Below, piece after piece: positions 535 to 23,026 of a stretch of DNA of 64,000 nucleotides. A program made the position numbers and the translations under genes. This stretch comes from Scatophagus argus (Eukaryota; Chordata; Actinopteri; Scatophagidae). Position 1 is the first letter of the stretch. Each line of letters starts with the position of its first letter. The notes beneath the pieces were generated by a model that was not told the DNA's origin, searched no databases, and saw only the letters and a program-made list of their open reading frames with translations. The DNA lies in NCBI RefSeq assembly GCF_020382885.2, contig NC_058503.1:20965535-21029534 (forward strand), given 5' to 3'.

Positions 535-2320
535 TTGCTTTTATTAGACACAAGGCAGTTTTATGTTGTTTATCAGGAGGAAATTCTGATCAGAGTCTGA
601 TACATGAAAAGCAAACACAGCAAACATGGCGTCCCATCACTCAGAAGCTTTAAAACAGAGAAATTGGAATGTGAAGCGCTGAACTGAACTGATCGTGATG
701 AGACTCGGCAGCAGGATGAAGGTCTCCAGGCGGCAGCTCGTCTTGTGTCTCCTCCCATCCAGACGTCTTCACCTCAGAGTCGCTGCTGCAGGAGCTGCTG
801 GAGGACGACAGCAGAGACAAACTCTGTCAGTTCACTCAGTCAGTCAGCTCTTTAGGTCGTGAATTCATGATTTAATGGAATATCAGTAACACTTCAAATA
901 AATTCCTTCTTGTTTCTTCCATTTCTTTCTTTCTTTTCGAGGGCAGCAAAAACCATCTGTGAACTTAAGACTGACGGCTCGCGTCCAGCAGACGCAGAGC
1001 AACGTTAGCGTCCATTAGGAGTCGTGTCTCTGTCTGCCACAGAGGCTGCATGAGGAAATGTTCACATGTGTCGTCTTTGGAACAGCTGAACCAGTTGGAC
1101 TTGAAAGACCAAAAGAGATCAAATCAAAATGATTTAAGTTCTTCCTTTCAGGATCATTTTTGTCGAATGAAAAATTTTTTTTAACAATGTGGGTTGTGAC
1201 TCTCAGTTGTATTGGACTGATGAAATTGAAATTAGTATGCCTGAAACGTAACTCAGTTAGACTCAATGATGATCACATTTATATTCACATTTAAATAAAC
1301 TGGATCTTACCCTGACTGCCAAGGACCTGCAGCCACATCCACCAGGCCCTGGTCCTCACCATGGACGTGGGGGTGTGGGATAGCACACATATGAAGGCGG
1401 AGGAGGGCAGGGTGGATAATTCACTTTTTAAATATCACAGTTGTCTTGACTCAGGGATCTCTAAATGTGGTGATTTTGAATGTCTTTGATAAACTGAAGC
1501 TTGGAGTGTTCCTCTGTGCACTGGAGAAAATTCTCAGACTTCTTAAGCTCAGTAAACCAAAAAGCTTCTTGGGTTAGCTGAAAAAACATGTCATCAAAAG
1601 CTGAAAACTGTGCTGTTTTTCTGAGCTCATGACAAGACAGGTGGTTCTCACAGGCCAGTGATGTTAATCTCACACAGTGGAAGAATGTTATTTTATCAAC
1701 ACAACCACTGGAGCGAGCCTGCCAGGCCATTTTCCGGGTTGTTTCCAGGCAGTTTGGTAGTTTTCTGAAAATCACTTGCTGGTTTTGTAGTAGAGTCACC
1801 ACCAGTGATGGTGGACACATCACAGACCAGCCCTCCCATTGTTGTATATGACCTGACTTTGCATCACACAACTGAAGACCATCACAGTGTATCATTAGAT
1901 AACATTGGTTGCGTGCAGCCGTGGCCTAGAGGTTGGCGAAGCGGCTTGTGATCAGAAGGTCATTGGTTTGATTCCCCCACTGGATGGGCAGGTAAAATTT
2001 GAGTGTGGTGGGGTGATAATGTCCTCACCTTCCATTAGCCAGCCCTTTAGCAAGGCACTTAACCCCCAATATATGCTCCCCGGGCGCTTGATGCAGCCCA
2101 CTGCTCCTGTGTGTTTCACTGCATGTTGCATGTGTGTGTGTTTCAATCTGTGATGGGTTAAATGCAGAGAAGTAATTTCTCAGCTTGGGATTCATAAAGT
2201 TACTTAAAAATAACACAAGGACTAAAAGGTGAGTAAATTTCAGTGGACTTACTGAGTGCTGGAGTGCAGATCCACAGACACAGCAGTGAACTGACTGCTT
2301 TTCTTACTGCTTTTATACTG
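535..2320 (-). pseudogene. Inverted, broken copy of a PRR13-like histidine-rich gene
   Basis: Read on the minus strand, this block keeps the parts of the intact gene at 19.0-20.95 kb in order. There is a TATA box (2317-2311), the exon 1 sequence with its GTAAGT donor (about 2295-2253), and a shortened exon 3 remnant (about 1410-1313, Pro-rich codons then a GTAAG donor). The Ser-rich exon 4 remnant lies at 805-773, followed by the 3' UTR with AATAAA at 545-540. It is broken in several ways. The His-Gly repeat is missing, no ATG exon was found, the AG before exon 4 reads CG, and the stop after the Ser/Asp tail is lost. A SINE sits in the position of intron 1/exon 2. Promoter and 3' UTR resemble the gene at 19 kb more than its two sisters. 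This is seen by direct comparison; that it is inactive is inference. Confidence 0.72.
1901..2195 (+). mobile_element. tRNA-derived SINE
   Basis: The left part has an A-box-like TGGCCTAGAGG (1922-1932) and a B-box-like GGTTTGATTCC (1965-1975) at tRNA spacing, as in RNA polymerase III promoters. The body runs through the 'fee'-type GGCACTTAACCCC core often seen in fish SINEs to a tail around GGGTTAAATGCAGAGAAG. It lies inside the inverted pseudogene. No clean target-site duplication could be assigned by eye. The tRNA-like part has decayed arms, so it is not a functional tRNA gene. Confidence 0.8.
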
Positions 2321-2440: not shown

Positions 2441-3640
2441 AGGGAGAGTGGAGCTCTTGCATTCAACAACACTTTCATGTTCTATAAGGAACTCTGAAGT
2501 GGTCCTGAATCGGTCTCACTTTAATACTGATGACATTACATGACCTGCATGAGAGACCATCAGCAACAAGAGCGGCTGTGTTTATGCAGTGAATATTAAT
2601 GTCTGCCACCAGCTCAGATGTTGAAAGTGAATACAGTTTTTCCTGCTGCTCTGTAGTCTGGTGGAGCAGCAGCTGATGCTCCTGTATGGCCAAACGGGAG
2701 CGGGACAACGAGCTTCTGACTTCATTTTTGTCGTCCTGGTTACTGAGGTATATATTGCTGTTGGCTTGTTGTCCTGAAGACATCACATTGAATGTTGGTG
2801 GTTTTAGCGTTAGCTCAACAAAAGTAGCAGACGACCTCAGAATGAAACTCAACAGTTGCTCGCTGGTGTTTTTAAAAACAGAAAGCAGAGAATCCTGCAT
2901 GTTACAGCGAGTCTCATGAATCAGGGAGCCTCTTAGATCCTTTAGATTCTTTACTGCAAGCTGAGAAATAAGGACGAATTTCACTGACATCAAAAAAAGA
3001 AGATTTTAAACAAAAATGATAGTAACAACAATGACAAGAAACCTCTAATGAGCAAATGTGCAAGAAGTCGGGCAATTCTCAAAGATACTCGAATGTGGGC
3101 ATCCGTTCGTCACCAGGCTGTGTGATGTAGCCAGTTAGTTCAACAGCTTTTTTTAAACCAACATTGTGAATAGTTTTTAGATTTTATTAACTTGCAACAG
3201 CATTAACAGTGTTGTCAGTGATTAAACATGTTTTGCATTTGATAAGGTTAACCAGGACAAAGTCGCCTTGGCGAGGCTGAAACTTTGTCTGGCGTAGATA
3301 AGCTGGGTGGAATTTAGGCCAGGCTGCTTTGCAGTGTAAAATGTCATATCTTTATGAGATGTTTACTCTGCTGGATCTTAGAACAAAGCCTGATTTTGTC
3401 TGAATGAGACACAGATCGATGACAGGAAGCTGGTAGGGGCTGCCATCTTTTTGATTTGATTTCACTGCTGTCGTGTTGTGTGTGTATGACTGCGGTGTTA
3501 TTGGTGTTTAACTCGGGCCTGGTTGAAGAGTTCCCTCACAGTGAGTGTTTTTCTTTAGAAGAAGTTATCTTGCATCATGAAGCCGCTTGGAGCCACTTTT
3601 GCTGTCCATTTTAATAAACAATTTGCCATGAGGGAGGGAT
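2441..3640. other. Non-coding/unknown, with one unexplained 172-codon minus-strand frame
   Basis: This stretch lies between the inverted pseudogene and the orphan 3' UTR fragment. A 172-codon minus-strand frame runs from 2993 to 2475 but matches no family I recognise and has no evident splice context. It may be chance or an old mobile-element relic. Nothing else was identified. Confidence 0.4.
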
Positions 3641-3654
3641 GTTGTGATTTTTAA

Positions 3655-3975
3655 ATCCATGAAGAGGAAGACGTCTGGATGGGAGGAGACACAAGACGAG
3701 CTGCCACCCGAAAACCTTCATCCTGCTGCCAATCGTCATCATAATCACTTTATCTGACCACTTAAAATTCAAAGTGTGTGTTTCAAAACTTTCTTTTCAA
3801 ATACTGCAGCGTTGCTTTGTGTGAAAACGACTTCAGCATCAGTCAGTGTGTGACGCTGTGTTTGCTTTTCATGTATCAGACGCTGATCAGAATCATTTCC
3901 TCCTGATAAACAACGTAAAACTGCCTTCTGTCTAATAAAAGCAAGTCATCTCTACCAAACTTTGTCTCTCTGTTC
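3655..3975 (+). pseudogene. Orphan 3' UTR fragment of the PRR13-like family
   Basis: The sequence begins just after the position of the stop codon in the intact gene at 20.5 kb (GAAGACGTCTGG... then GGAGACACAAGACGAGC). It continues to a poly(A) signal AATAAA at 3934-3939. It matches the 3' UTR of that gene and, in reverse orientation, the pseudogene at 535-770, forming arms of an inverted repeat about 2.9 kb apart. There is no coding exon, so this is a dispersed or duplicated tail, not a gene. Confidence 0.7.
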
Positions 3976-4236
3976 TCTTCTCCATGTGTGTGTTTAACTT
4001 CTTGTTGGACGAAACTAAAAATCTCCAGCCATCACTTCGGACTCCATAAAAAGACAGCTTAACAGCTAATCATTTAGTCAAACATAAGAGACAGATTCAC
4101 TGATGAATGAAAATAAGTGTTAGTTTAAGTTGAGTTTCATAATCTTCACCTAACCTGCGAGACGAGAAAGCACAAGGACTCCAGGACAAAGTTGAGTTGG
4201 TAACATGCATTAATGGAACATAAATCTGTGCAGCGG

Positions 4237-17346: not shown

Positions 17347-17401
17347 CATAAAAGGAGCAGCAGGTGACAGGTGCGTCTTCGGACCCACGCTCCAGCAAAC
17401 A
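17347..17401 (+). promoter_or_regulatory. Core promoter and non-coding exon 1 of PRR13-like gene A
   Basis: A TATA-type CATAAAAGG (17347-17355) is followed by a GCAGCAGGTGAC segment and a short leader ending at 17401 before a GTGAGT donor. The same arrangement and bases recur at gene C (21924-21979), defining one of two promoter classes in the cluster. The transcription start near 17375 is inferred from TATA spacing. Confidence 0.65.
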
Positions 17402-17683
17402 GTGAGTTCACTTTTAAAACTCTGATGGTGATGAGGATGATGATGGTCTGTAGCTAACTTGAGCACAGGGTGACGGTCGGTTTGGGAGGATTTTGAGTCA
17501 CACCTTAAACCGTTTCACACTTGCATTTCTCTAATCTTAAATGTTTTGTGAAGGTGGTTTTAGGGTTTGTTTTTGTTTCCTGTTTAAAAAGATTTTTGTT
17601 TGCGTGAGGGAGTTTTGTGTGGATTTGTTCTAATAATTTGACTTGATTGATTTTTTTTCACTTTCAGGGTTTGAAGTTTTGAA

Positions 17684-18546
17684 ATGAACAGACAAGGTAA
17701 GGAAACACAGCCGGTTTTGCTTCATCCTCACCTCGTTCTTCCAGATGTGTTGAATGCGTTTCATTCACAGTTGCTGAATATGAATTTATAACCAATTACA
17801 GGTGGAGGCTGTGGCCAAGGAGGCCATGGCCATGGACACTGCGGTGGTCATGGACACGGTGGTGGTCATGGACACTGTGGTGGTCATGGTGGTCATGGAC
17901 ATGGTGGTGGCCATGGACAATGTGGTGGTCATGGACACTGTGGTGGTCATGGACATGGTGGTGGCCATGGACACTGTGGTGGTCCTGGACACGGTGGTGG
18001 TCACGGACACTGTGGAGGTCCTGGACATGGACACGGACCTCGGCACAGACGCAGGCATAAGCGTGGCCATAAGCATAACAAGTGTCACAAGAAGGGGAAG
18101 GACTGTCACGGGGTAAGACTGAGTATTGTGGAATTCATTCACAACAGGAAGCGGGCTTTGTTCCAAATTCAGAAACGCGAAGCATGAAAGTTTTACACAA
18201 TCCGGCCCACAGTAATTCGTCCAGGAGGAGAACGAATGTTCTCGTGCAGGAACACCAGGCTGCACTTCCACGTATTTGCACACATTCACACATGGATGTT
18301 GCCTTTTTTAAACACAGTCTGATCAGTTGCAGGTTTAGTGTCTCTACATGGATGGGAAAGTGCTAACTTTTACCTTGCATGTTCAGATCTATGCTGTCTG
18401 TTGTCTGTTCTAAAACTGATATTTGATTAACAAGACTTGAACTCATTCTCTCACTGACTGGCTGTTCTGCTTGTTTATGTGTGTTGTCTGTATGTTAATC
18501 CCAACTGTAGTCCTCCAGCAGCTCCTGCAGCAGTGACTCTGACTAG
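17684..18546 (+). CDS. PRR13-like gene A: Gly/His/Cys-rich protein, 119 aa
   Basis: Coding exons 17684-17696, 17802-18112 and 18511-18546; the frame closes to 119 aa. The ATG follows a non-coding leader exon plus a 16-base 5' UTR stretch in exon 2 (from 17668). The protein starts MNRQGGGCGQGG, then has a long Gly/His core of HGHCGGHGHGGG-type units with regular Cys. A basic stretch (HRRRHKRGHKHNKCHKKGKDCHG) precedes the separately encoded tail SSSSSCSSDSD. The basic His/Lys region followed by poly-Ser and Ser-Asp matches the C-terminus of PRR13 (TXR1) as I know it. No signal peptide or membrane segment is present. Metal binding by the His/Cys core is plausible but inferred. It is the least proline-rich of the three tandem genes, so PRR13 kinship rests on shared gene structure and tail. 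Confidence 0.72.
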
Positions 18547-18723
18547 ACGAAGACCAGACTCCTTGACGGGAAAAGACCCATCAGCCTACCTGCACAAGGA
18601 TCACAGTTTACCTTAAAAAGTTTTTGGGCCTTATTTTCATGTGTATTCTTGGTGCAAAGCATGTAAAACACAAACTGAGTTTTCACTGATTGTATGGCCT
18701 TGAATGAAATAATAATCTAATCA

Positions 18724-18729
18724 AATAAA
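18724..18729 (+). terminator. Poly(A) signal of PRR13-like gene A
   Basis: AATAAA lies 178 bases after the stop codon of gene A, followed by an A-rich then GT-rich stretch. Confidence 0.6.
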
Positions 18730-19007
18730 AAATCATGAAAACAGAGATGGTTTGGGAGGTTTTTCATAACTTTCTGAGTTTGAGTCACTGAATGAAGATG
18801 AGCTGATTATTCCAAAAGAGATTTTGTTTTCAGAAAATTAAAACCATCCTGGAGAAAATCTTGGTTGAATCTGAAAAGGTGTGATCTGTTTTGGGTGTGA
18901 TACTGGTGCGCACTGCCGTGTGCCACAGAGTCATTATTAAGATGACCACTAGATGGCACCAAAGTAAGACATTTTCAGTGATCATCTCCGACTGAGGTGT
19001 GGTCTCC

Positions 19008-19062
19008 TATAAAAACCGAGTCAGTTCACTGCTGTGTCTGTGGATGTGAACTCCAGCACTCA
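19008..19062 (+). promoter_or_regulatory. Core promoter and non-coding exon 1 of PRR13-like gene B
   Basis: TATAAAAA (19008-19015) is followed by GTCAGTTCACTGCTGTGTC and a leader ending at 19062 before a GTAAGT donor. The TATA-to-donor region closely matches the inverted pseudogene at 2317-2253 and differs from the promoters of genes A and C. Confidence 0.7.
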
Positions 19063-19245
19063 GTAAGTTTACTAGATGCTATCTGGGCATAATTACCAAT
19101 ATTTCACAATATTGCATTTCACAACTGCTTTAATCTATCTACATAATCTACATCTTATATATGTATTTATATCTTTCCTTACATTAAGAAGGTGTGCAAA
19201 TTAACTGGCTTCTTTCATTTCAGGATTTGGATCTGAAATTCTGAA

Positions 19246-20508
19246 ATGTCGTGGAATAACAAAGGTAAATAACTCACCTGTTGTAACTGTCTTTTGTTCA
19301 TCCTCAGTCAGTTTTAACTTTTACTGCATCCCCGTCCTTTTACCAAACTATATTTATTTAATCTGGGGGAGCAAAAATTGACACCAACTCTAAACAATCT
19401 GAAAGAAAAACAAGATAAGCCCCACTCCTTTTGTTTGACCAGGATACCAGCGTCCTCAGCCAATGCCAGGAGGATACCCTCAGTGTCCACCAGGTCCCGT
19501 GCCACCCCAACCCTGTCCTCCCCAGCCCAGTGCTCCACCTGTGTGTAATCCTGTAGCCCCACCGTGTGGAGGGCATGGAGGTTGTGGCCCTGGGCATGGA
19601 CATGGACATGGTCCTGAGCATGGTCATGGACATGGTCATGGGCATCATGGACATGGACATGGTCCTGAGCATGGGCACGGGCATCATGGACATGGACATG
19701 GTCCTGAGCATGGTCACGGGCATCATGGACATGGACATGGACATGGTCACGGGCATCATGGACATGGACATGGACATGGATGTGGGCACCATCATCATAG
19801 GCATGGTCACATGCACGGCCATTGCCACAAGAAAGGAAAGCAATGTCACGGGGTAAGAGCCTATGAATTTATTTAGTTATTTATGAAGTAAAAACTGTAC
19901 CACAGTCCATCGACAACAACTACTTAGTTTAATACAATTAGAAACTGTTTATTCATAAATGATATTCTTAAATAAATTCAAATTCGACACATAGCTGAAA
20001 CTAATGCAGTTTAATACAAAAGTGAAACACCTCTGTGGTGAAAGTTTGCAGAATTTAGGCACTACTTGGGTAAACACACTGCAAGATCATCATAAAGTGA
20101 CGGTAATCAATATTTTCTCCTGTGATGATTGTGTAAAGTCTTAACTCACACTGGAGTTCCACAGTCTGTGCAGCTCCACTGAGCATTTTAGTTTCTTATA
20201 GCTATTCAGTGCTTTTCTGGAGAGCCAGATATTCCCAGGAGTCCTGAGAGAACAAATCCAGTGCTAAAAAGTGATTAGTGATGATTGATCTCTTATTAAC
20301 CGGGTGGACAGACACGACTGAACAGATGAACATGTTAGCTGTGTCAATTTAAAAAGTGATAATATGTCAGTGTCACACTCCTCATAGACACATGACTCAT
20401 TTCATTTATTTAATGTGTCACTGATTATTTCATGAAATAATGAATTTATGACGGAGTTTGTCTCTGCTGCAGTCCTCCAGCAGCTCCTGCAGCAGTGACT
20501 CTGACTAG
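19246..20508 (+). CDS. PRR13-like gene B: Pro-rich N-terminus and His-Gly repeat, 154 aa
   Basis: Coding exons 19246-19264, 19443-19852 and 20473-20508; the frame closes to 154 aa. Residues 1-50 (MSWNNKGYQRPQPMPGGYPQ then PPGPVPPQPCPPQP) resemble the Pro/Gly/Tyr N-terminus of PRR13, which also starts Met-Trp-Asn-Pro. From about residue 50 to 125 the protein is a His-Gly repeat with three 39-base units carrying GPEHGHGH. Then comes HCHKKGKQCHG and the tail SSSSSCSSDSD from its own exon. No signal peptide is seen. The repeat is so regular that long stop-free frames exist on both strands; only the spliced plus-strand frame makes a consistent gene. Mammalian PRR13 is described as a nuclear regulator, but no function is assigned here beyond the likeness. 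Confidence 0.78.
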
Positions 20509-20940
20509 AGGAAGACGTCTGGCTGGGAGGAGACACAAGACGAGCTGCCGCCCGGAAACCTTCATCCTGCTGCCATTCATTTATGAACCTAATCAGTTTA
20601 TTTGACCACTTTAAAGGTTCAGCGTGTAGGATTTGGTGACATTTCACCAATTCTAATAGTTTGATGGGATGAAAACAAATTTCCCTTTTGTTCCCTTCGT
20701 GTCCCTCTGAATCCTTCACACTGGACCTTGAAGATTCAAAGTGTGCATCTGAGAACTTTGTTTGTTTTGCTTCAAATATTTGCTTATAAATGCAATTTAC
20801 AAGTCAAGTTTCGCTGTCATGAACACACATACTTTAATAACTTGTATGAACTGTTACGCCAACACTTTTTAAAAACTCCACGCGTCGGTTTGTGACTCTG
20901 TGTATCATTTTCTTGCAACATAAAACTGCCTTCTGTTTAT

Positions 20941-20946
20941 CATAAA
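20941..20946 (+). terminator. Variant poly(A) signal of PRR13-like gene B
   Basis: CATAAA sits exactly where the related 3' UTR fragment at 3.66-3.97 kb has AATAAA, about 430 bases after the gene B stop. This is one change from the canonical hexamer. Confidence 0.45.
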
Positions 20947-20984
20947 AGCAGGTCATCTCTACAAAACTTTGCCTCTTTATTCTC

Positions 20985-21920
20985 TGTTTTATTTGACCTC
21001 ATAGTTACACTGTGTGTCATGTGAACGCTGAATTAAGACCTTTGTTCAGCTCTGTCCAGTCACACACCCTGCAGCTCCTGAGAACACACTCATCTGAGCC
21101 CAGTTTTACTCAGCTATGAATCTTTTATTCACGCTCTTTCGGGTCTCACAGTAACACATTTTAATCTCTGACACATAGACTTGTGTATTATGATTATTAA
21201 ACTTCAGAGCAGCTCCTCTTTTCAGTGCACAACAGCAAGGCGGTGAGGCTGAGTGTAAACATGTTGCACCTTTGGCCCAGAACCAATCAGTTTTGTGCTT
21301 GATAAAACAGAAGTGCATTTCACAGTATTGTTTAATGCTTTGTTCCTTATTCAGGTTGCTACAGTCTTCCTGAGAAAGAAGAGGATGAATTGAGCCAAAT
21401 ATAAAGATCAGAAAATAAGTGACATATGAAACAAACAAAATCATAGTTAACAATTTAAATAAAATTGTCAGAAATGAACAGCAGCAAAGCAAATAAAAAC
21501 TCACGAAGCTTCTAATTTTGATCTACTTTTGACCTCATTAGTGATTTAAATAATCACATTTAAACATGGTGTTCTGTCTCATAAGACTCAGAAATAATTT
21601 CTTAAGGGTGGAGGAGGGATGTCTGAAGATACGCAATGAAAGAAGACTCAAAATGTGTTCCGGTGTTTCGGTGTCATGAGGTTGCAGATGACCAAATGAG
21701 CTCAGAATCAAACAAAAACATGAGCTGTAAACCACATCTTTAAACAGAAACGCACACAGTTTCAGAGGTGTGGGTGTGTGCATAATTACCTTAGACCATG
21801 GACTGTATTGACCGCATGTTAAAGATTACACACACACACACACCCACGCCCATAGGTGGAGCAAAGCACAGTGTGATGGGAGCTCATGACGTTCTGCCGC
21901 CTGATGATGAGAAGTGGGCT
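20985..21920. other. Spacer between PRR13-like genes B and C
   Basis: AT-rich sequence without recognised exons or repeats. It ends with a short CA run at 21828-21843 upstream of the gene C promoter. Confidence 0.45.
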
Positions 21921-21923
21921 GCA

Positions 21924-21979
21924 CATAAAAAGGATCAGCAGGTGACGGCTGAGTGTGTGGATCTGCTGTCCAGCTCACA
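21924..21979 (+). promoter_or_regulatory. Core promoter and non-coding exon 1 of PRR13-like gene C
   Basis: CATAAAAAGG (21924-21933) followed by ATCAGCAGGTGACGG and a leader ending at 21979 before a GTGAGT donor. It matches the gene A promoter, including the GGCTGCA directly upstream of the TATA-type box. Confidence 0.68.
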
Positions 21980-22117
21980 GTGAGTTCACCTCATCGTGTG
22001 CAGACCTCTCAGCTTCTCATACAGGAAACCAGTGTGTGCGTGTGTGTTGGTTTGTTTAAAGTGTTTTTTTCTTTTCTCTCTGCTTTCAGCTTCTGTAGTT
22101 TCACCTGAAGTCTTATA

Positions 22118-22757
22118 ATGTACGGACACAACCAAGGTAAAGGACACCGCCGCCGTCAAATACAAATACATGCTCGTGTTCTACGATAAAGCATTGACTA
22201 AGTAAGTATTCCTCTTTTGTCCTCATCTGTAGGAAACCCGTACCCTCCGGGTTACCCAGGCCACCCTCAGCAGGCGCCTGGGGGATACCCTCAGTATCCT
22301 CCAGGCACAGTCCCACCAAACTGCCCTCCTCAGCCCCACGGACCTGGATATGGCCCGGGATATGGAACCGGCTGTGGCCAGGGACACGGGCAATGCCAGG
22401 GACACGGGCAATGCCAGGGACAAGGGCAATGCCATGGACAGGGACACGGACACGGACATGGACATGGACATGGACATGGACCCGGACACGGACATGAACA
22501 TGGACATGGACATGGACACGGGCACAAGCACAAGCACAAGCACAAGCATGGCCACAAGCACGGCCATTGTCACAAGAAAGGGAAGGACAGTCACGGGGTA
22601 AGAATCACTTTTTCCAATATGATGTACTGGTCTCTAACAACTTGTTCCAAATCTTAAGTCGAGAACTGAACGACGGTGATTGGCTGATGTCTGTGTGTTG
22701 TCTTCATCCCTGCTGCAGTCTTCCAGCAGCTCCTGCAGCAGCAGCGACTCTGACTAG
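22118..22757 (+). CDS. PRR13-like gene C: Pro/Gly-rich N-terminus, His-Gly and His-Lys repeats, 140 aa
   Basis: Coding exons 22118-22136, 22233-22597 and 22719-22757; the frame closes to 140 aa. The N-terminus MYGHNQGNPYPPGYPGHPQQ and the following PGGYPQYPPG/PPQPHGPGYGPG segment closely resemble PRR13-type Pro/Tyr/Gly sequence. The middle has three GQCQGHG-like units, then HGHG repeats. It then shifts to HKHKHKHKHGHKHGHCHKKGK, much like the His/Lys-rich end of mammalian PRR13. The tail exon encodes SSSSSCSSSDSD. Intron positions match genes A and B exactly (after the first base of a Gly codon, and before the Ser tail). Of the three, this is the best PRR13 match. No signal peptide is seen. 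Confidence 0.8.
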
Positions 22758-23020
22758 ATGAAGACGCCACGAGACAAGTTGGTGCCAGCAGACCTTCATC
22801 CTCCTAGCATGCATTATGATCATTATTTTACTGCCTAAATGTTTCTTCACTTATAATCTTAAAAAAAAGCAGTTTGTGGCTGTGCTGGATGTTTCAAAAT
22901 GACTCTTGATCCTCCGTGCCGTGACTTCATTACATGGTGTGGTCCAGTTTTTCTTCGGATTTCATTTGTTAGTGTACAGTAAGAGTCATTATTGTATACT
23001 CTAACTGTGTCTGTGAGAAA

Positions 23021-23026
23021 AATAAA
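23021..23026 (+). terminator. Poly(A) signal of PRR13-like gene C
   Basis: AATAAA 264 bases after the stop codon, followed by a GT-rich stretch. Confidence 0.55.

Follow-up and report, generated by a model that had tools for sequence, protein, structure and literature searches.

What are the small histidine-rich genes that lie in tandem beside lss in the fish Scatophagus argus, and are they related to PRR13, as a first-pass annotation of the locus had proposed? That annotation described three spliced genes (here g1, g2 and g3) within a 64,000-nucleotide stretch of DNA, hereafter called the window, which corresponds to C11:20965535-21029534 (contig NC_058503.1) of a 570.7-Mb assembly of 48 contigs. 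On searching this assembly, we found that the three genes form the right-hand end of an array of ten copies, whose gene structure indicates that they are very probably kin of PRR13.

A ten-copy array on both sides of lss

The exon borders and reading frames reported for g1, g2 and g3 were recovered. GT donors at 17697, 18113, 19265, 19853, 22137 and 22598 all have matching AG acceptors, the introns fall in phase 1 and then phase 0 in all three genes, and the predicted spliced products are 119, 154 and 140 amino acids long. TATA-like boxes at 17347, 19008 and 21924 each stand ahead of a very short non-coding exon, in agreement with the proposed promoters and first exons.

The count of three genes needed to be revised. 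A tail-exon pattern, allowing up to three mismatches, matches nine places genome-wide, all on C11, whereas the reversed-pattern control yields none. The tenth copy is g3, whose tail carries one codon more than the searched pattern. The copies are named A, B, C (reverse strand), D, E, F, G (reverse strand), g1, g2 and g3, and G is a damaged copy within the window (770-805, reverse strand) that had been overlooked. Full gene models were obtained for nine of the ten copies, G being a relic, and the exon plan of g1-g3 recurs in six more modelled copies outside the window. These encode predicted proteins of 63 (A), 81 (B), 210 (C), 86 (D and E, which are equal) and 145 (F) amino acids. DNA searches with exon 3 of g1 and exon 3 of F gave at least five and at least 12 places, respectively, all on C11. 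The tail pattern had no match in viral or prokaryote collections, as expected of a fish gene.

The array spans about 44 kb of C11, from the TATA box of copy A (20944164) to the stop codon of g3 (20988291). It is bounded by mcm3ap and a gene that we take to be hibch. The cluster does adjoin lss, as described, but its copies lie on both sides of that gene.

The tailed copies look protein-coding

An open frame alone is no proof of coding in these genes because other frames also stay open through the GGN-CAY repeats. Comparison of repeat units within genes, for which copy F offers no usable block, places 47 of 79 mismatches at the third codon position when one period is taken per gene (g1 18, g2 39, g3 18, C 33), and 96 of 173 over all listed periods, against an expectation of one third. 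An earlier codon-position test on Gly units was dropped because the choice of unit fixes two positions by construction.

A second line of evidence comes from comparing F, g1, g2 and g3 on either side of their splice sites. The last 30 nucleotides of exon 3 are identical at 24-28 positions and the first 24 nucleotides of the tail exon at 22-24 positions. The 30 nucleotides of intron that follow the donor agree at only 7-11 positions in five of the six pairs, the 30 that precede the acceptor at 12-17 positions, and the 3′ untranslated region at 9-11 of 30 positions in five of the six pairs. The exon ends are constrained, whereas intron agreement in most pairs is close to chance; therefore, the tailed copies look like protein-coding genes. 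Together with the recurring exon plan, these results support the annotation's view of g1-g3 as protein-coding genes with predicted splicing.

Two classes of copies and a mosaic history

Five of the ten copies (C, F, g1, g2 and g3) constitute a tailed class, in which a basic stretch is followed, after the AG acceptor, by an SSSSSC..DSD tail in its own exon and then by a stop codon. This tail is lost from the other five copies, A, B, D, E and G, of which the first four make up a tail-less class of short Pro/Cys proteins that end inside exon 3. In all five copies that have lost the tail, the acceptor has changed from CAG to TCG and the stop codon of the tail has changed in an identical way. Because both changes are shared, they suggest either one ancestral loss or spread by gene conversion. 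The new stop codons precede the exon 3 donor by 17 nucleotides in A and by 45 nucleotides in B, D and E. Nonsense-mediated decay usually follows a rule of 50-55 nucleotides, and by this rule the four stops are near enough to the last donor to escape it. Readthrough of the tail-less copies was considered and rejected.

Different parts of the same genes differ in their degree of identity. Copies A and F are 99% identical in intron 1 and 49% identical in intron 3. Between C and F, intron 3 and the last exon are 99% identical, exon 3 is 77% identical and intron 1 is 81% identical. Copies D and E are 98-100% identical up to intron 3 and 89% identical over the final 300 nucleotides. Such mosaics would fit gene conversion or unequal exchange.

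Gene structure points to kinship with PRR13

S. argus has its own prr13, a gene for a 167-amino-acid protein at C3:9181514-9183653. It was located with a PCBP2 KH domain as the query, which matches 11 places; the best of these (C3:9188857, 90%) was followed in the 5′ direction, and prr13 lies 5.2 kb 5′ of this pcbp2-like KH exon. At a second pcbp2-like place, on C8, the same script detected no such tail in the 19 kb examined. A human PRR13 C-terminus used as the query gave a single genome match (C23, E 1.36), which was rejected because its frame is not PRR13-like. A report on ayu includes prr13 and pcbp2 among the genes of a synteny figure (PMC8389408).

The tailed array genes resemble PRR13 (also TXR1) in having a small ATG exon that ends in phase 1, a large exon that closes in a Lys/His stretch, a phase-0 intron and a last exon that runs from TCCTCCAGCAGC to DSD. 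The phase-1 ATG exon is present in nine of ten copies and the phase-0 second intron in all five tailed copies, as in prr13; beyond their stop codons, B, D and E still keep phase 0 and A has phase 2. The differences are also clear. The tail of prr13 has ten serines in a row, as opposed to five serines and then a cysteine in the array, and prr13 has about one cysteine and a Gly/Ala stretch before its basic part where the array cores carry Cys/His-rich repeats. The array genes have TATA boxes, whereas none was seen by eye before the putative first exon of prr13, and the array occupies another locus. Human PRR13 is described as lacking any domain and as having ten serines conserved at its C-terminus (PMC11911201).

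Residue alignment contributes far less. With shuffling confined to windows of 10, the alignment score to prr13 was reached by 3 (F), 16 (g3), 32 (g1), 50 (A), 151 (g2), 227 (B), 245 (C) and 305 (D) of 500 shuffles. With the tail removed, the numbers were 11 (F), 42 (A), 66 (g3), 119 (g2), 287 (D) and 372 (C) of 500. The common exon plan and the start of the tail are specific, and the residue alignment is not. The link to PRR13 therefore rests on gene structure, because the residue alignment is mostly compositional. The relation that the annotation had proposed is supported by the exon plan, phases and Ser-tail exon.

Since the array lies between mcm3ap and hibch, away from pcbp2, and a separate prr13 exists near the pcbp2-like KH exon, the array genes would be paralogues of PRR13 and not its orthologues.

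Composition and possible function

The histidine-rich label applies to g1 (41% Gly, 24% His), g2 (27% Gly, 27% His) and g3 (27% Gly, 20% His), each of which also has 5-8% Cys. It does not extend to C, F, A, B, D and E, whose cores are of the Pro/Cys kind. Pro makes up a third of A and D, in which Cys accounts for 10-13% and His is absent; E also lacks His, and B has 1%. A Pfam scan of seven different array proteins (g1, g2, g3, C, F, B and D; A was left out and E equals D) returned no family above its curated cut-off, the best scores being 11.3 and 14.3 bits for TrAA12 (cut-off 30.9) and 15.4 for DUF6970 (cut-off 27). Matches to g3 in PDB are weak and compositional (best E 0.045). The modelled proteins show no evident signal peptide or hydrophobic start, and a secreted role was rejected for want of the latter.

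The basic and poly-Ser end of prr13 (L054:1634-3653) matches the plant dehydrin profile PF00257 with an E value of 3.4e-5 (24.8 bits, cut-off 30.6). This is a likeness of composition rather than membership, and the array proteins that were scanned gave no dehydrin match; it may hint at how such tails work.

We favor the explanation that a gene with the PRR13 plan gave rise to this array of nine complete models and one relic, that its cores were rebuilt, and that the products have an intracellular, disordered role. For the whole of this account we see an even chance, a judgment that mostly reflects gene structure. A PRR13-type gene would have been copied to the mcm3ap-lss-hibch locus, where the founder of the array would have gained a TATA promoter. 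Its single large exon would then have been remade by repeat expansion, into Gly-His-Cys cores in g1, g2 and g3 or Pro-Cys-Gly cores in C, F, A, B, D and E. Five copies would have retained the C-terminal module (the basic stretch, a CHKKG..CHG-type end and the Ser-tail exon), and the other line would have shed it through the changed acceptor and the earlier stop.

Under the same explanation, the proteins would be intracellular, disordered and Cys/His-rich, and made in bulk by one cell type, perhaps epithelial. An AGGTG[T/G]GG box, noted by eye ahead of the TATA box in eight of the nine models (it is absent in g3), resembles what we take to be KLF sites and is a weak hint at epithelial expression. 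The core might associate through Cys and through metal- or pH-dependent His contacts. The basic stretch and an acidic Ser tail of CK2 type could direct the tailed class to the nucleus or to RNA/phosphate partners, and the tail-less class would supply the core only. This specific role, in which a bulk low-complexity protein carries a basic/phospho-Ser address that can be detached, is the one we favor, although it is less likely than not.

Several observations weigh against the explanation as a whole. The alignment to prr13 is weak beyond composition (3-305 of 500 shuffles reach the score), g1 lacks a Pro-rich part, and none of the seven scanned proteins reaches a Pfam cut-off. Likeness also extends outside exons, between F and g1 in intron 3 (22/30) and between F and g2 in the 3′ untranslated region (29/30). 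The AGGTG[T/G]GG box is common by descent and was read without a control. Finally, the models are predictions from genomic sequence.

If the explanation holds, a conserved single gene of unexplained function has seeded an array in which the core was rewritten from Pro-rich to Gly-His or Pro-Cys, while the splice plan stayed and the C-terminal module was kept in half of the copies. The array would provide a natural series for probing the role of the PRR13 tail. Alignment alone would miss such kin, the signal being carried by gene structure.

Two other functions deserve consideration, and each seems to us unlikely. The Gly-His-Cys members could buffer zinc or copper inside the cell, in which case their basic stretch and tail would serve for location only. 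The high His (20-27%) and Cys (5-8%) contents of g1, g2 and g3 and the lack of an evident signal peptide in the models are consistent with metal handling. However, His makes up only 0-1% of their sister copies (none in A, D and E, 1% in B), so metal binding by His cannot be a function common to all copies.

Alternatively, the proteins could be nuclear regulators like PRR13/TXR1, whose Ser/Asp tail and basic stretch would work on chromatin or RNA while condensation is tuned by the core. No part of the tailed copies is better kept than the tail exon and basic end, prr13 has the same C-terminal module, and PRR13 is described as a suppressor of thrombospondin-1 transcription (PMC11911201). Against such a function, the module is lost in five of the ten copies and the core changes fast. 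Moreover, mouse CD4 T cells that had conditionally lost Prr13 reportedly showed no difference in the infection assay of that study (PMC11936294).

A broader idea, which we regard as improbable, is that an inducible epithelial low-complexity family derived from PRR13 exists across vertebrates, with PHGR1 as a tail-less, translocated member and the fish array as the expanded form. Mammalian PHGR1 is described in PMC5803922 as having four exons, a Pro/His/Gly-rich sequence with repeats of about 11 amino acids, conserved cysteines and no conventional signal peptide, and as located in the cytoplasm and nucleus of gut epithelium. At the level of description, the exon plan and composition of the array fit those of PHGR1 (PMC5803922). 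The human gene differs in its locus, which is 15q15.1 and not lss/hibch. PHGR1 is not known to have a Ser tail. It is the nearest functional parallel that we have seen in print. Under this broader idea, a nuclear housekeeping protein would have become a structural or metal-binding protein made in bulk by losing its Ser-tail exon, and the fish array, in which tailed and tail-less copies coexist, would show this change half-way. If the favored explanation is right, the array also offers a way to ask if PHGR1, a gut protein for which no relatives are known, is of the same family.

SPRR-type cornified-envelope clusters likewise are tandem arrays that encode small Pro/Cys repeat proteins of the cell interior, the repeats of which turn over fast, but on another exon plan; the likeness is one of description. 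PMC5803922 mentions such clusters.

Open-licence papers in PubMed Central (PMC) included none found to name the array or fish PRR13-like expression, and a search there for 'phgr1' with 'zebrafish' gave none on a fish gene by title. Public fish annotation may well list the array genes as uncharacterised.

That the array consists mostly of relics, with repeats expanding in decaying copies and one, two or no genes expressed, would accommodate the plainly broken copy G, the common lost acceptor and stop of the tail-less copies and the conversion-like mosaics, but is very improbable given nine open models with intact splice sites, the third-position bias of the tailed copies and the constraint on their exons relative to near-random introns.

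Features of the locus and neighboring genes

Coordinates of the features in the window, and of the exons of prr13 in extract L054, are collected in Table 1.

Table 1. Positions of array-gene features in the window and of prr13 coding exons.
Feature	Sequence	Positions	Strand
g1 TATA-like box to end of non-coding exon 1	window	17347-17401	+
g1 exon 2, ATG at 17684, ends in phase 1	window	17668-17696	+
g1 exon 3, Gly-His-Cys repeats and basic His/Lys/Arg stretch	window	17802-18112	+
g1 exon 4 coding part, SSSSSCSSDSD and stop	window	18511-18546	+
g2 TATA box to end of non-coding exon 1	window	19008-19062	+
g2 exon 2, ATG at 19246, phase 1	window	19224-19264	+
g2 exon 3, Pro/Cys stretch, Gly-His repeats, basic stretch	window	19443-19852	+
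g2 exon 4 coding part, SSSSSCSSDSD and stop	window	20473-20508	+
g3 TATA-like box to end of non-coding exon 1	window	21924-21979	+
g3 exon 2, ATG at 22118, phase 1	window	22090-22136	+
g3 exon 3, YPPG stretch, Gly-His/Gln-Cys repeats, KHKHKH stretch	window	22233-22597	+
g3 exon 4 coding part, SSSSSCSSSDSD and stop	window	22719-22757	+
Copy G tail-exon relic, acceptor CAG to TCG, no stop at usual place	window	770-805	-
Copy G exon 3 donor relic (CAGGGTAAGA)	window	1305-1314	-
Copy G promoter-relic TATA box	window	2310-2319	-
prr13 ATG exon ATGTGGCCAAATCAAG (MWPNQG), ends in phase 1	L054	1514-1529	
prr13 446-nucleotide Pro-rich exon closing in Lys/His stretch, phase-0 intron after	L054	1634-2079	
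prr13 tail exon SSSSSSSSSSDSD	L054	3612-3653	

The left neighbor of the array is mcm3ap (MCM3AP_GANP, E 1.1e-32), and lss, within its span, matches lanosterol synthase chains (E 2e-15). To the right lie an ECH_2 gene, SmAKAP and a TGF-beta gene with a propeptide; from their families and synteny, the first and last of these are presumably hibch and myostatin (mstn).

Copy G (770-2319, reverse strand) retains its TATA box and the exon 3 and tail relics but has neither exon 2 nor the 5′ portion of exon 3. The site of these lost parts is occupied by a 154-amino-acid open frame (1461-1925, reverse strand), which had no match in the Pfam scan and is possibly a piece of a mobile insertion. Upstream of G is a 176-amino-acid open frame (2475-3005, reverse strand), and the same sequence is present upstream of copies D and E (L008, about 3500-4000); therefore, it was duplicated together with their promoters. 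Its Pfam match to CjCas9 PI-CTD (E 0.072) is below the cut-off and was taken as chance. Upstream of copy A, the stretch GGTTTGAGGTTTTGAAATGTTTAGACACGA (L006 3160-3200; C11 about 20943150) resembles, by eye, exon 2 of g1 without its donor and is perhaps the relic of an eleventh copy.

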